Source: an uncultured Acetobacteraceae bacterium | GTDB taxonomy: Bacteria > Pseudomonadota > Alphaproteobacteria > Acetobacterales > Acetobacteraceae | Direction: 5' to 3' | Assembly (NCBI GenBank): GCA_903907955.1 | Contig: CAIVPZ010000057.1 | Coordinates: 1 to 64,000 of the forward strand | Length of the DNA: 64,000 nt | In this document: piece by piece, positions 4,204 to 62,993 of the stretch | Layout of the letters: every line of letters begins with the position of its first letter | How positions within the stretch are numbered: the stretch's first letter is position 1 | Made by a program: the position numbers and the translations under genes | Notes under the pieces: model-generated | What the model was told of the DNA's origin: nothing | Seen by the model: only the letters and a program-made list of their open reading frames with translations | Database searches by the model: none

Positions 4204-4407
4204 CAGAGCTGGTGAAGCAATCGAACCTGCGCATGAACGCCCGCTGATATCATTGAGCGTTTCCGGCAAGATCGGAGCGTCGCGGACGTTCATTCACAAA
4301 TCTCAGAGCTTGTGAAGCAATCGAACTTGTGAATGAACGCCCGCTGATATCATTGATCTTTTTCGGCAGGATCGGCGCGTCGCGGGCATTCATTCACAAA
4401 CTCTCAG
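4203..4407. repeat. Two tandem 100-bp repeats, each with inverted arms
   Basis: The segment at 4203-4302 is repeated at 4303-4402 with an exact 100-bp period and scattered substitutions; shared blocks include CCGCTGATATCATTGA and CATTCACAAA. In the second copy TTGTGAATGAACGCCCG (4327-4343) pairs with CGGGCATTCATTCACAA (4383-4399) at 16 of 17 positions. The first copy keeps a weaker version. The array fills the gap between cheZ and the TPR gene and overlaps the cheZ stop codon. It could act as a terminator or RNA-processing site, or be a small dispersed element. Confidence 0.85.
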
Positions 4408-11794: not shown

Positions 11795-11807
11795 ATTTGA
11801 AACGGTT

Positions 11808-11877
11808 CCAAGGGCAAAGCCCTTGGTGCAGGTCCAGGAGGCAAAGCCTCCTGGCGGGGTCCGGGGCTGCGCCCCGG
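11808..11877. repeat. Triple palindrome cluster 1 (convergent junction)
   Basis: Three perfect hairpins follow one another: CCAAGGGC-AAA-GCCCTTGG (11808-11826), CCAGGAGGC-AAA-GCCTCCTGG (11834-11854) and CCGGGGC-TGC-GCCCCGG (11861-11877). They lie between the ends of flgH and the convergent ABC exporter and could serve as a bidirectional terminator, although none has a T-tract. Stems of 7-9 bp with 3-base loops match the other clusters in this window. Confidence 0.85.
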
Positions 11878-14593: not shown

Positions 14594-14603
14594 GTAAGTA
14601 AGG

Positions 14604-14647
14604 CCAGGGCGCTGCCCTGGACCCGGCAGGGGGCAGTGGCCCCCTGC
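14604..14647. repeat. Double palindrome cluster 2 (convergent junction)
   Basis: Two perfect hairpins occur: CCAGGGC-GCT-GCCCTGG (14604-14620) and GCAGGGGGC-AGTG-GCCCCCTGC (14626-14647). They separate the ends of the NUDIX gene and the convergent DUF4167 gene. The order, the ACCC spacer and the AGTG loop recur in clusters 3 and 6. Confidence 0.85.
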
Positions 14648-14657
14648 ACCCCATTCA

Positions 14658-19663: not shown

Positions 19664-19753
19664 GGGAAAGTGGCTCCGGGGTGGGGAGGTTTGCGCGGCA
19701 ACATGCCCGCTTGGCGCCTCGCGCGCAAACGTGGTGGGCGCGGGGCAGGAAGG

Positions 19754-19938
19754 CCAGGGCTCCGCCCTGGACCCGCCAAGGGGCAGTGGCCCCTTGGAAC
19801 CCATTCCATAAGGCCCTTCGGGAGAGGGGGGTGAGGAGATGTTGATACATCTCCTCACCCCCCTCTCCCGAAGGGCCTTGAAGTAGCGGGGTCCAGGGGT
19901 CCACCGACCCCTGGCGGGTCCAGGGGCAGCGCCCCTGG
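19754..19938. repeat. Giant nested palindrome, cluster 3
   Basis: The centre is a perfect 33-bp inverted repeat (19810-19842 and 19847-19879) around the loop TGAT. On the left lie CCAGGGC-TCC-GCCCTGG (19754-19770) and CCAAGGGGC-AGTG-GCCCCTTGG (19776-19797). On the right lie CCAGGGGTC-CACC-GACCCCTGG (19893-19914) and CCAGGGGC-AGC-GCCCCTGG (19920-19938). The right modules are reverse-complement counterparts of the left ones, so the whole is one large imperfect palindrome. It lies between the methyltransferase stop and the ispG upstream region, both on the minus strand. Confidence 0.9.
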
Positions 19939-19940
19939 CC

Positions 19941-20723
19941 TTACTTCCCCGGCGCCCACCCCGTCAGCACCGCCAGTCGCAGCGTCGCGCGCATGCGCCC
20001 CGCTTCCGCCGGCAGCATTGCCAGCGCCGCCGGAAACAGCGCCCGCGGCGGGATGCGGCGGTCGCGTTCGATGATCGCGTTGGCCTCGCCGGCGGCGCGC
20101 AGGTCGCGCAGGAGTTGCAACGGCTCGGCGTACAGCACGCGGATATCCTCGGCATCGGCGACGGGGAACAAGAAGCCGGCGCGCTGGAGCAGGCTGGCGC
20201 AGTCGCGCAGGTCGGGAAACGGCGACACCCGCGGCGCCGCCCCGCCGGTCAGCGCGGCTTCGGCCTGGGTCAGCGCGGTGCGCAGTTCGGCGAAGGAACC
20301 CAAGGCGGGCAGGCTGGCCAGCAGCAGCCCGTCCGGCCGCAGCACCTGGCGCAACTGGATCAGCGCGCCGGGCAGGTCGTTCACCCAGTGCAGCGACAGG
20401 CTGGCGACCACCAGATCGAAGCTGGCGGGGGCGAACGGCAGGAATTCCTCGTCGGCGGCCACCGCCGGGGCGCCGGCGCGGGCCGCCATGCGCGGCGAGA
20501 GGTCGCAACTCACCGCCGCGATGCCGCGCCCGCGCAGCCTTGGCGCCACCACCCCGCGCCCGCCGACATCGAGCGCGCAGCCGAACCGGTGCGTGGTGTC
20601 GTCCAGCCGGTCGAGCAGGCGCTCCGCCGCGTCGGCCAGGATGTCGGCCACCTGGTGCACCGTGGCGGCGGCGCGGTCGCGATGGCGGCGTACGGCGGCG
20701 CGATCGAAAACGTTCATGCTCAT
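19941..20723 (-). CDS. NDUFAF5-like SAM-dependent methyltransferase/hydroxylase family protein
   Basis: The 260-residue protein begins near [17 protein letters not shown], a conserved start of NDUFAF5-type proteins. It has a class I SAM fold with the binding loop CALDVGGRG (about 61-69; the usual GxGxG is weakened) and [19 protein letters not shown]. Human NDUFAF5 hydroxylates an arginine of complex I subunit NDUFS7, and alphaproteobacteria carry homologues. A complex I maturation role here is an inference. Start 20717 is an alternative. It is divergent from the rhodanese gene. Confidence 0.8.
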
Positions 20724-32012: not shown

Positions 32013-32014
32013 GG

Positions 32015-32054
32015 CCAGGGCGCTGCCCTGGTGGGGTTCGGGGCAACGCCCCGA
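32015..32054. repeat. Double palindrome cluster 4 (convergent junction)
   Basis: CCAGGGC-GCT-GCCCTGG (32015-32031) is identical to the first module of cluster 2. It is followed by TCGGGGC-AAC-GCCCCGA (32038-32054). They separate the ends of rodZ and the convergent terC gene and begin 3 bases after the rodZ stop codon. Confidence 0.85.
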
Positions 32055-61076: not shown

Positions 61077-62015
61077 ATGGCTTCATCACCAACGGCGATC
61101 CGCCGCGTCGCCTGCATCGGCGCCGGCACCATCGGCGCAAGCTGGGCCGCCTATTTCCTCAGCCGCGGCCTGGAAGTGGTGGTCAGCGACCCCGCCCCCG
61201 GCGCCCCCGACCTGCTGCGCCGCATGATCGAACAGGCCTGGCCGGCGTTGCTGCGCCTGGGCGCGGTGCCCGGCGCCGACCCGACCGCATGGCGGTTCGA
61301 GCCGAACCCGGTGCAGGCGGTCGAGGGCGTCGGCTTCGTGCAGGAAAGCGCGCCCGAGCGCTACGACATCAAGAAGGCGCTGCTGCCGAAGCTCGACGCG
61401 GTGCTGCCGCCCGAGGTGGTGATCGCCTCCTCCTCCTCCGGCCTGCTGATCAGCCGGCTCTCGCAGGGCTGCGAACATCCGGAGCGGTGCGTCATCGGCC
61501 ATCCGTTCAACCCGCCGCATCTGGTGCCGCTGGTCGAGGTGGTGGGCGGCGCCACCGCCGCGCGCGCCACCATCGATTCCGCGATGGCCTTCTACCGCGC
61601 GGTCGGCAAGCACCCGATCGAGATCCGCAAGGAAGTGCCGGGCCATCTCGCCAACCGGCTGCAGGCCGCACTGTGGCGCGAGGCGGTGCACCTGGTGGAG
61701 GAAGGCGTGGCCAGCGTGGCCGATGTGGATGCCGCCATCAGCGAGGGTCCCGGGCTGCGCTGGGCGCTGATGGGGCCGCACGCAACCTTCCACCTCGCCG
61801 GCGGCGACGGCGGCATGACGCATTTCCTGCACCATCTGCTGCCCGCCATGCAGTCCTGGTGGGAACACCTGGGCACCCCGGATGTGACCCCCGCGCTGCA
61901 GACCAAACTGATCGAGGGCGTGCGCGAGTCGGTGGGCGGGCGCAGCGTGGCCGAACTCGCGGCACGGCGGGATGCGTTTCTGATCGAATTGCTGGAGTTG
62001 CGGCGGCGGACGTAA
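61077..62015 (+). CDS. 3-hydroxyacyl-CoA dehydrogenase family protein
   Basis: The 312-residue protein has the NAD motif VACIGAGTIGASWAAYFL, catalytic region SSSSGLLISRLSQ and IGHPFNPPHLVPLVEVVGG (the HPFNPP loop). A C-terminal helical domain follows with EVPGHLANRLQAALWREAV. Relatives include L-carnitine dehydrogenase, lambda-crystallin/L-gulonate dehydrogenase and 3-hydroxybutyryl-CoA dehydrogenase. The ATG at 61077 has GGGAGAGG upstream. A crotonase gene lies convergently beyond the repeat cluster. Confidence 0.88.
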   Translation: MASSPTAIRRVACIGAGTIGASWAAYFLSRGLEVVVSDPAPGAPDLLRRMIEQAWPALLRLGAVPGADPTAWRFEPNPVQAVEGVGFVQESAPERYDIKKALLPKLDAVLPPEVVIASSSSGLLISRLSQGCEHPERCVIGHPFNPPHLVPLVEVVGGATAARATIDSAMAFYRAVGKHPIEIRKEVPGHLANRLQAALWREAVHLVEEGVASVADVDAAISEGPGLRWALMGPHATFHLAGGDGGMTHFLHHLLPAMQSWWEHLGTPDVTPALQTKLIEGVRESVGGRSVAELAARRDAFLIELLELRRRT

Positions 62016-62025
62016 GGAAGGAAGG

Positions 62026-62212
62026 CCAGGGCTCTGCCCTGGACCCGCCAGGGGTCAGTGGACCCCTGGACCCCGCTACTTGAGGGTCTTGGGGAAAGGG
62101 GGCTGAGGAGATGTTGATGCATCTCCTCAGCCCCCTTTCCCCAAGACCCTGAAAAGTAATGGGTTCCAAGGGGCCACTGCCCCTTGGCGGGGTCCAGGGG
62201 CAGCGCCCCTGG
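62026..62212. repeat. Giant nested palindrome, cluster 6 (convergent junction)
   Basis: A perfect 31-bp inverted repeat (62083-62113 and 62120-62150) surrounds the loop TTGATG. Left modules are CCAGGGC-TCT-GCCCTGG (62026-62042) and CCAGGGGTC-AGTG-GACCCCTGG (62048-62069). Right modules are CCAAGGGGC-CACT-GCCCCTTGG (62166-62187) and CCAGGGGC-AGC-GCCCCTGG (62194-62212). The layout copies cluster 3. It fills the gap between the dehydrogenase and crotonase stops. Confidence 0.92.
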
Positions 62213-62219
62213 CCTTCCT

Positions 62220-62993
62220 TCACGCCCGCCGCGCCGCCAGGAACGCCCGCATCCGGCTGCCCGGCTCCTCGGTATCCCAGGCCCCGGCAAACGCCGCGAT
62301 GCCGTGGGCAATCGCGCCGGCCGGCAACAGTTCCTCCCAGTCCCGCAGCAGCGCCTTCTGCCGGCGGATCGCTTGCGGTCCGGCGGCCAGCACGTCGCCG
62401 ACGACGCGCGCCACCGCACGGGTCAGTTCCTCGGACGGCACCACTTCCTCCACCAGGCCCCAGGCAAGCGCGGTGGCGGCATCGATCGGCTCGCCGGTCA
62501 GCAGCAGGCGGCGGGTGCGCCCCCAGCCGATCAGCAGCGGCAGCAGCGCCGCCTCGGCGGCGCTGGGGATGCCCATGCGCACGTCCGGCATGGCAAACAG
62601 CGCGCCCCCGGCCGCCACCCGCAGGTCGCAGGCCGCGGCGATCAGCAGTCCGGCGCCGATGGTCCAGCCCTGCAGCCGGGCCACCACCGGCACCGGCAGG
62701 CTGCGGATCGCGTCGCAGACGCCGTGCAGGGCGGCGATGATTTCGCGCGCGCCATCCCGGTCCAGCGCCGCCATCTCGGCGATGTCGGCGCCGCCGATGA
62801 AGGCGCGCTCGCCGTCGCCGGCCAGCACCACCACGCGCAGCCGGTGGTCGCCGGCCAGCACCTGCAGGGCGGCGGCAAGCGCGGCCATGGCGGCGGCATT
62901 GAGCACGTTGAGTTTGGCCGGGTTGCTCACGGTGATCCGGGCGACCCGCCCTTCCGGCCGGTCATCGAGCGTCGTCACAATCCGCGCGGTCAT
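62220..62993 (-). CDS. Crotonase family protein (enoyl-CoA hydratase-like)
   Basis: The 257-residue protein has the crotonase fold with AFIGGADIAEMAAL (oxyanion region), GWTIGAGLLIAAACDLRVA and FAMPDVRMGIPS. The two catalytic Glu residues of classical enoyl-CoA hydratase are not at the usual positions (Leu in GAGLL, Asp in PD), so hydration is uncertain; isomerase, hydrolase or decarboxylase chemistry is possible. It converges on the dehydrogenase gene. Confidence 0.88.
   Translation of the reverse strand: MTARIVTTLDDRPEGRVARITVSNPAKLNVLNAAAMAALAAALQVLAGDHRLRVVVLAGDGERAFIGGADIAEMAALDRDGAREIIAALHGVCDAIRSLPVPVVARLQGWTIGAGLLIAAACDLRVAAGGALFAMPDVRMGIPSAAEAALLPLLIGWGRTRRLLLTGEPIDAATALAWGLVEEVVPSEELTRAVARVVGDVLAAGPQAIRRQKALLRDWEELLPAGAIAHGIAAFAGAWDTEEPGSRMRAFLAARRA

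Follow-up and report, generated by a model that had tools for sequence, protein, structure and literature searches.

The palindrome at positions 62014–62220 of the window (the whole stretch of 64,000 nucleotides analysed here, from an uncultured Acetobacteraceae bacterium, a relative of the acetic acid bacteria) belongs, in the reading that we favor on balance, to a family of mosaic palindromes of a BIME/REPIN-like kind that is non-coding and dispersed in the Acetobacteraceae; the complementarity of its arms is probably kept by template switching, and it likely plays a role at the 3′ ends of mRNAs.

How is this element built? The region is a nested, near-perfect palindrome of about 205 letters in the gap separating two genes, with the module order A, B, a 34-bp core stem, B′ and A′. 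Both neighbors have their 3′ ends at the element: upstream, a 3-hydroxyacyl-CoA dehydrogenase gene (PF02737/PF00725; 61077–62015, plus strand), and, converging on it, an enoyl-CoA hydratase/isomerase gene (PF00378; 62220–62993, minus strand). Read inward, AAGG repeats are followed by A, B, a 34-nt arm and a 6-nt loop, and then by the inverted counterparts. On the plus strand, the left end (62014–62025) is an AAGN tetramer repeat, AAGGAAGGAAGG, that starts at the upstream stop codon and has its inverted partner at 62213–62220. Hairpin A (62026–62042; CCAGGGC TCT GCCCTGG) has a 7-bp stem and the loop TCT, and hairpin B (62048–62069) a 9-bp stem, CCAGGGGTC, and the loop AGTG. The purine-rich left arm of the core (62080–62113), which covaries with the right arm across copies, leads to an apical loop of 6 nt, TTGATG (62114–62119, with no strand assigned), found in other copies in either orientation relative to the arms. 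The right arm (62120–62153), complementary to the left at 33 of 34 positions, is followed by hairpin B′ (62166–62187; 9-bp stem CCAAGGGGC, loop CACT), whose type differs from that of the B hairpin in the left arm, by hairpin A′ (62194–62212; 8-bp stem CCAGGGGC, loop AGC) and by the right end, CCTTCCTT (62213–62220), which adjoins the stop codon of the convergent gene. The first-pass annotation, which had described an outer CCAGGGC hairpin, 9-bp hairpins with AGTG or CACT loops, a core and inverted counterparts at 62026–62212, had these modules in the right places; the two ends extend the element slightly beyond that interval. The predicted minimum free energy of 62014–62220 is −187.4 kcal/mol, compared with −98.3 ± 5.2 kcal/mol for shuffled sequences (z = −17; none of 200 shuffles was as low), and two folds are available to the modules A, B, core, B′ and A′: a single giant stem, or a separate hairpin for each of the five. 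An Rfam search of the window at the gathering threshold gave no match.

The core arms match each other, and the unique flanks outside are homogenised as well, but left and right arms consistently differ in their outer A and B modules. The B stems were identical between arms in none of 19 copies, and the two B hairpins of one copy were never of the same type (0/19); the A stems mostly differ by 1 bp, with lengths of 7 and 8 bp in most copies. This inequality may be under selection, perhaps because separate hairpins are thereby favored over a single stem; the alternative is that switching acts patchily.

A second full copy lies at 19744–19948 (plus strand), between two tandem minus-strand genes. 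The same earlier reading had ascribed one layout and perfectly complementary core arms to both copies, and the observation is confirmed: the modules stand in the same order, and the arms pair at 33 of 33 positions there and at 33 of 34 in the copy at 62014–62220. Both cores contain GAGGAGATGTTGAT. The window further holds, on the plus strand and each in a convergent gap, a partial copy consisting of hairpin modules only (11806–11877), a half copy with A and B and no core (14603–14650) and a partial copy with A and a second hairpin (32013–32052). When the assembly to which the window belongs (4.64 Mb in 176 contigs) was searched by sequence, the full 200-nt element was found at about 18 places, together with many halves of 60–70 nt; a covariance model gave 19 strong core places and 1 weak one (about 20), beside dozens of half copies. 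The full copies that were read have the same module order or are recognisably truncated, and coreless doubles (L037, L043 and L048) occur as well as single halves. On contig C6 (L045), the stretch that separates two half copies contains called genes. Near-identical copies occupy unrelated sites (L003 and L005, 97%; L001 and L002, 94%). Because the window copy is about 94% identical to L002, its closest paralogue, and the corresponding gene end is empty in the congeners G004 and G001, we conclude that new copies arise or are exchanged.

Several observations concern individual copies. At L022 (G000:C41:214601), a further outer hairpin module, CCGGGGCTTCGCCCCGG, is present on both sides, so that the nesting goes one level deeper. 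L161 and L312, both in G004, are half elements whose hairpin B is split by a further short GC palindrome (GCGCGCAGCGCGC... and GTCGCGCAGCGCG..., respectively), a second small palindrome thus being inserted into the first. Contigs end inside or beside the palindrome in G000 (C164, C117 and C55), G004 (C330 and C285) and G001 (C322 and C178); the palindrome is a recurrent assembly breaker.

Among 60 relatives, matches to the element were limited to the window's own family, the Acetobacteraceae. For the adjacent gene, the best relatives that bear a name also come from this family (an uncultured Acetobacteraceae MAG, 85%; Limobrevibacterium gyesilva, 81%); downstream of this gene, that MAG has the same sequence as the congener G004, which identifies the family as Acetobacteraceae. 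The apex GAGGAGATG is common to the congeners G001, G002 and G004; G006, G010, G026, G063 and G085 have other apices in the same layout. A plasmid search for the element returned half-module matches only, on which ground we rejected plasmid-borne spread, and a phage origin was rejected because no match was found. Two Streptomyces plasmids (NZ_CP108415.1 and NZ_CP108308.1) carry 44-bp, 91% matches to part of the B′-A′ module.

The arms of the core change together. In 39 cores from four congeneric genomes, 94% of the cells pair, 26 of the 34 core pairs have changed on both sides, and 193 cells are double-changed, where shuffling gives 54. Covariation scored 0.418 in these cores, 0.151 after shuffling and no more than 0.118 after sliding the partners. 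The first-pass annotation had reported matched substitutions in both arms from two copies and had proposed an alignment of all genomic copies; that alignment yields further copies, and their arms covary. Compensatory change is the standard proof of a functional RNA structure. Such change is present in the core, and it is also expected from the correction of a palindrome at the level of DNA. In the outer helix, 8 cells are one-sided versus 150 two-sided, and one-sided G-U states or standard pairs are rare. All genomes together gave 57 cores with 1495 Watson-Crick, 8 G-T, 8 A-C and 5 other cells. When cores were oriented by tandem genes, 6 G-U and 3 A-C were counted among 842 cells (G-U, 0.7% on the sense strand). 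These low and roughly balanced G-U and A-C counts, which are small and come from an arm detection that penalises mismatches, suggest that DNA complementarity is kept more than RNA pairing.

According to the flanking DNA, several copies are common by descent (L002/L271/L292, L016/L272, L028/L267, L031/L265 and L025/L051). The site upstream of yebC is likewise inherited (L012, L293, L205 and L207; L209 and L193 were recognised by reading), and the element is present there in six genomes (G000, G006, G010, G026, G063 and G085); in several other relatives this site has a short spacer with no comparable hairpin by eye. At orthologous sites, where the flanking DNA is 73–95% identical, the core arms are 58–96% identical between species and 92–100% complementary within each copy, and between species they are often equally or less alike than the flanking genes. 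L028 and L267, for example, have nearly unrelated arms, each perfectly paired. Moreover, the loop is inverted between orthologues (CCGATGC in L031, GCATCGG in L265), and the window copy and L002, its closest paralogue, likewise have opposite loop orientations. Orthologues thus show both homogenised arms and inverted spacers, the published signature of template switching (PMC8604942).

The palindrome also reaches into unique DNA. An extension score of at least 10 for flank palindromes was reached by 55% of 44 copies, whereas mispaired flanks reached it in 2.3% of cases. The AAGN end repeat is part of this signal; with the first 12 nt left out, a local test still yields 36% versus 3.5%. At L006, the left flank is the coding end of a gene (KFALQ followed by the stop codon), TCGCACTCCAGTAA, which congeners conserve; its reverse complement, TTACTGGAGTGCGA, forms the right flank. 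In G001, G002 and G003, the corresponding gene end is present without the mirrored sequence, and there is no hairpin there. A similar situation exists at L074 in G004, whose left flank, GGCAAGGGAGGT, is largely common with G000; the mirrored right flank occurs in G004 only, and the orthologous site in G000 has only half an element. These palindromic unique flanks are new here.

The element sits at gene ends. The neighboring genes mostly stop no more than a few tens of bases away, often only a few, and at many tandem sites the next start codon follows within about 50 nt. The 44 sites comprise 31 tandem, 11 convergent and 2 divergent gaps, as classified approximately by a simple codon-usage gene caller; a later set including relatives comprises 32, 15 and 4, respectively. 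Within the window, the element is found in 4 of 9 convergent gaps and in none of 9 divergent gaps, and the convergent gaps hold 4 of its 5 places. We found no canonical terminator (a GC-rich hairpin and T run) in the copy at 62014–62220 (0 sites at a strict T count), where the tail is CCTTCCTT; some other copies, such as L040, have longer T runs. Judged from the sequence, the element may act on mRNA 3′ ends, since it lies behind stop codons, seldom occupies divergent gaps and has an outward pyrimidine tail. If a function is retained, it might be that of an RNA hairpin serving in termination, processing or protection from exonucleases, and at convergent sites such a hairpin could be shared by both genes. 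Elsewhere in the window (4282–4399), an 18-nt motif occurs three times beside a gene start, once as TTGTGAATGAACGCCCGC and twice as its reverse complement, with start-to-start spacings of 45 and 55 nt, and these copies look like operator sites.

How might complementarity be maintained in arms that change so fast? In the reading that we favor, one arm would fold on the other during replication and serve as its template, as in the template switching described for quasipalindromes. A change in one arm could then be copied to the other in a single event, which would keep the core perfect while it changes quickly; the same switch would flip the loop and could extend the palindrome into neighboring unique DNA. 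We regard DNA template switching as the likely keeper of complementarity on the grounds of the loop inversion between orthologues, the few G-U pairs and the arm homogenisation. It has also been argued that template switching creates and maintains RNA hairpins (PMC8794818). The A and B modules, which are unequal between the arms, speak against it, because simple homogenisation would erase this inequality, and the fast turnover of the core could alternatively reflect conversion between copies. A stronger form of the idea, which we put forward only tentatively, is that of a self-maintaining palindrome: its arms would be complementary chiefly through template switching at replication, so that it evolves fast without loss of pairing, mirrors the unique DNA beside it, even where this is the end of a neighboring gene, and grows outward without a transposase, and the unequal A and B modules would be its selected, functional part. 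The first-pass annotation had offered covarying structured RNA as one of two explanations. Selection for RNA structure alone, acting through ordinary compensatory mutation on a bidirectional 3′-end hairpin (a terminator, RNase III site or exonuclease block), would account for the position at gene ends and the depletion between divergent genes, the strong covariation of the core arms, the outward pyrimidine tail CCTTNCTT and the conserved site upstream of yebC. We nevertheless consider it rather unlikely. The compensatory change is massive, but one-sided states in the outer helix and oriented G-U pairs are both rare, the copy at 62014–62220 has no T-run terminator, loops flip between orthologues and unique flanks are mirrored; the few G-U pairs, the loop inversions and the palindromic unique flanks favor a DNA-level process over covarying structured RNA.

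The other explanation offered at first, a mobile palindrome, is supported in part, namely for dispersal, given the copies at unrelated sites (97%), the window copy 94% identical to L002 and the site empty in two congeners; its proposed agent, a Y1/REP-associated transposase with matching hairpins, is not. The sole Y1 gene of the genome (L030:249–928, on G000:C122), which encodes an IS200-like/RAYT-like protein of 183 aa, stands instead between two inverted copies of another hairpin, GTAGGGTGGGCTTCAGCCCACC, which appears from its sequence to be a separate repeat, a candidate GTAG-tagged REP. A half copy of the A/B element lies just downstream of this gene (L030, about 1047–1101). Y1_Tnp was found in 6 of the 60 family genomes searched, the window genome included, and not in the element-bearing G010, G020, G026, G032, G034 and G085. 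A REPIN mobilised by a RAYT would fit the two inverted hairpin modules around a spacer and the one Y1 gene; because this gene has its own hairpins and most element-bearing relatives lack Y1, we rejected the link and hold such mobilisation to be very improbable. We think it quite unlikely that the element is a non-autonomous MITE whose putative transposase targets hairpins such as terminators, the palindromic flanks then being pre-existing target hairpins. The near-identical copies at unrelated sites (L003/L005 and L001/L002), the empty site in G004 and G001 and the predominance of gene ends would agree with this, but the 44 copies show no target-site duplication (direct repeat length, 2.8; in mispaired flanks, 2.9), orthologous sites show many copies to be old, and the left flank of L006 is coding, with no hairpin there, in congeners. 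No parent transposon or candidate transposase with the ends of the element was noticed in the loci read, the transposase search having covered Y1 only. At the L007 site, gene order differs in the empty-site comparison. We give hardly any credence to an assembly artefact from chimeric inverted reads: contigs often end in these palindromes and the genomes are mostly drafts, but the same site carries the element with different sequence in independent genomes of several genera, and different genes lie on its two sides.

Among known systems, the family resembles BIMEs and REPINs in layout, without the defining RAYT; its sequence differs from that of REPINs and is not known to be related to that of BIMEs. 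It is a real multi-copy family of nested palindromes. As in the BIMEs and REPs of enterobacteria and pseudomonads, extragenic, dispersed palindromic units alternate in orientation with intervening motifs, occur in high copy as mosaic halves and doubles and often lie near gene ends. In contrast to those, modules of two hairpins surround a long, hypervariable and perfectly paired core, and the unique flanks are mirrored too. In REPINs, two modules are inverted around a spacer, a long hairpin or clover fold is predicted and single halves occur (PMC3116915); A-B and B′-A′ are likewise inverted around the core here, but no matching RAYT is present, the spacer is a long covarying stem and the modules are consistently unequal. 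GTAG- and CGTC-tagged REPs (PMC3733652) are also short extragenic palindromes, and CGTC repeats were reported to be missing from Acetobacteraceae (PMC3733652); the hairpin ends of the element have no such tag, and the GTAG-type hairpin of this genome flanks the Y1 gene. Like MITEs, the element is short, non-coding and dispersed, with inverted termini; unlike them, it has neither a target duplication nor a detected parent IS. Quasipalindrome correction by template switching (PMC8604942, PMC8794818) likewise homogenises arms, inverts spacers and creates perfect stems, but it is a mutational process rather than a repeat family, and in this family its target appears to be a dispersed repeat, with effects over tens of bp and across genera. 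The combination of long covarying cores at orthologous sites with mirrored unique flanks is unusual.

Literature searches with the motif itself returned no relevant paper, and those on palindromic repeats of Acetobacteraceae found no description of this repeat, which is widespread in the family, breaks assemblies and sits at gene ends. The family provides dozens of long stems, many of them at orthologous sites in several species, and these stems allow covariation to be tested against a mutational explanation, template switching, rather than selection.
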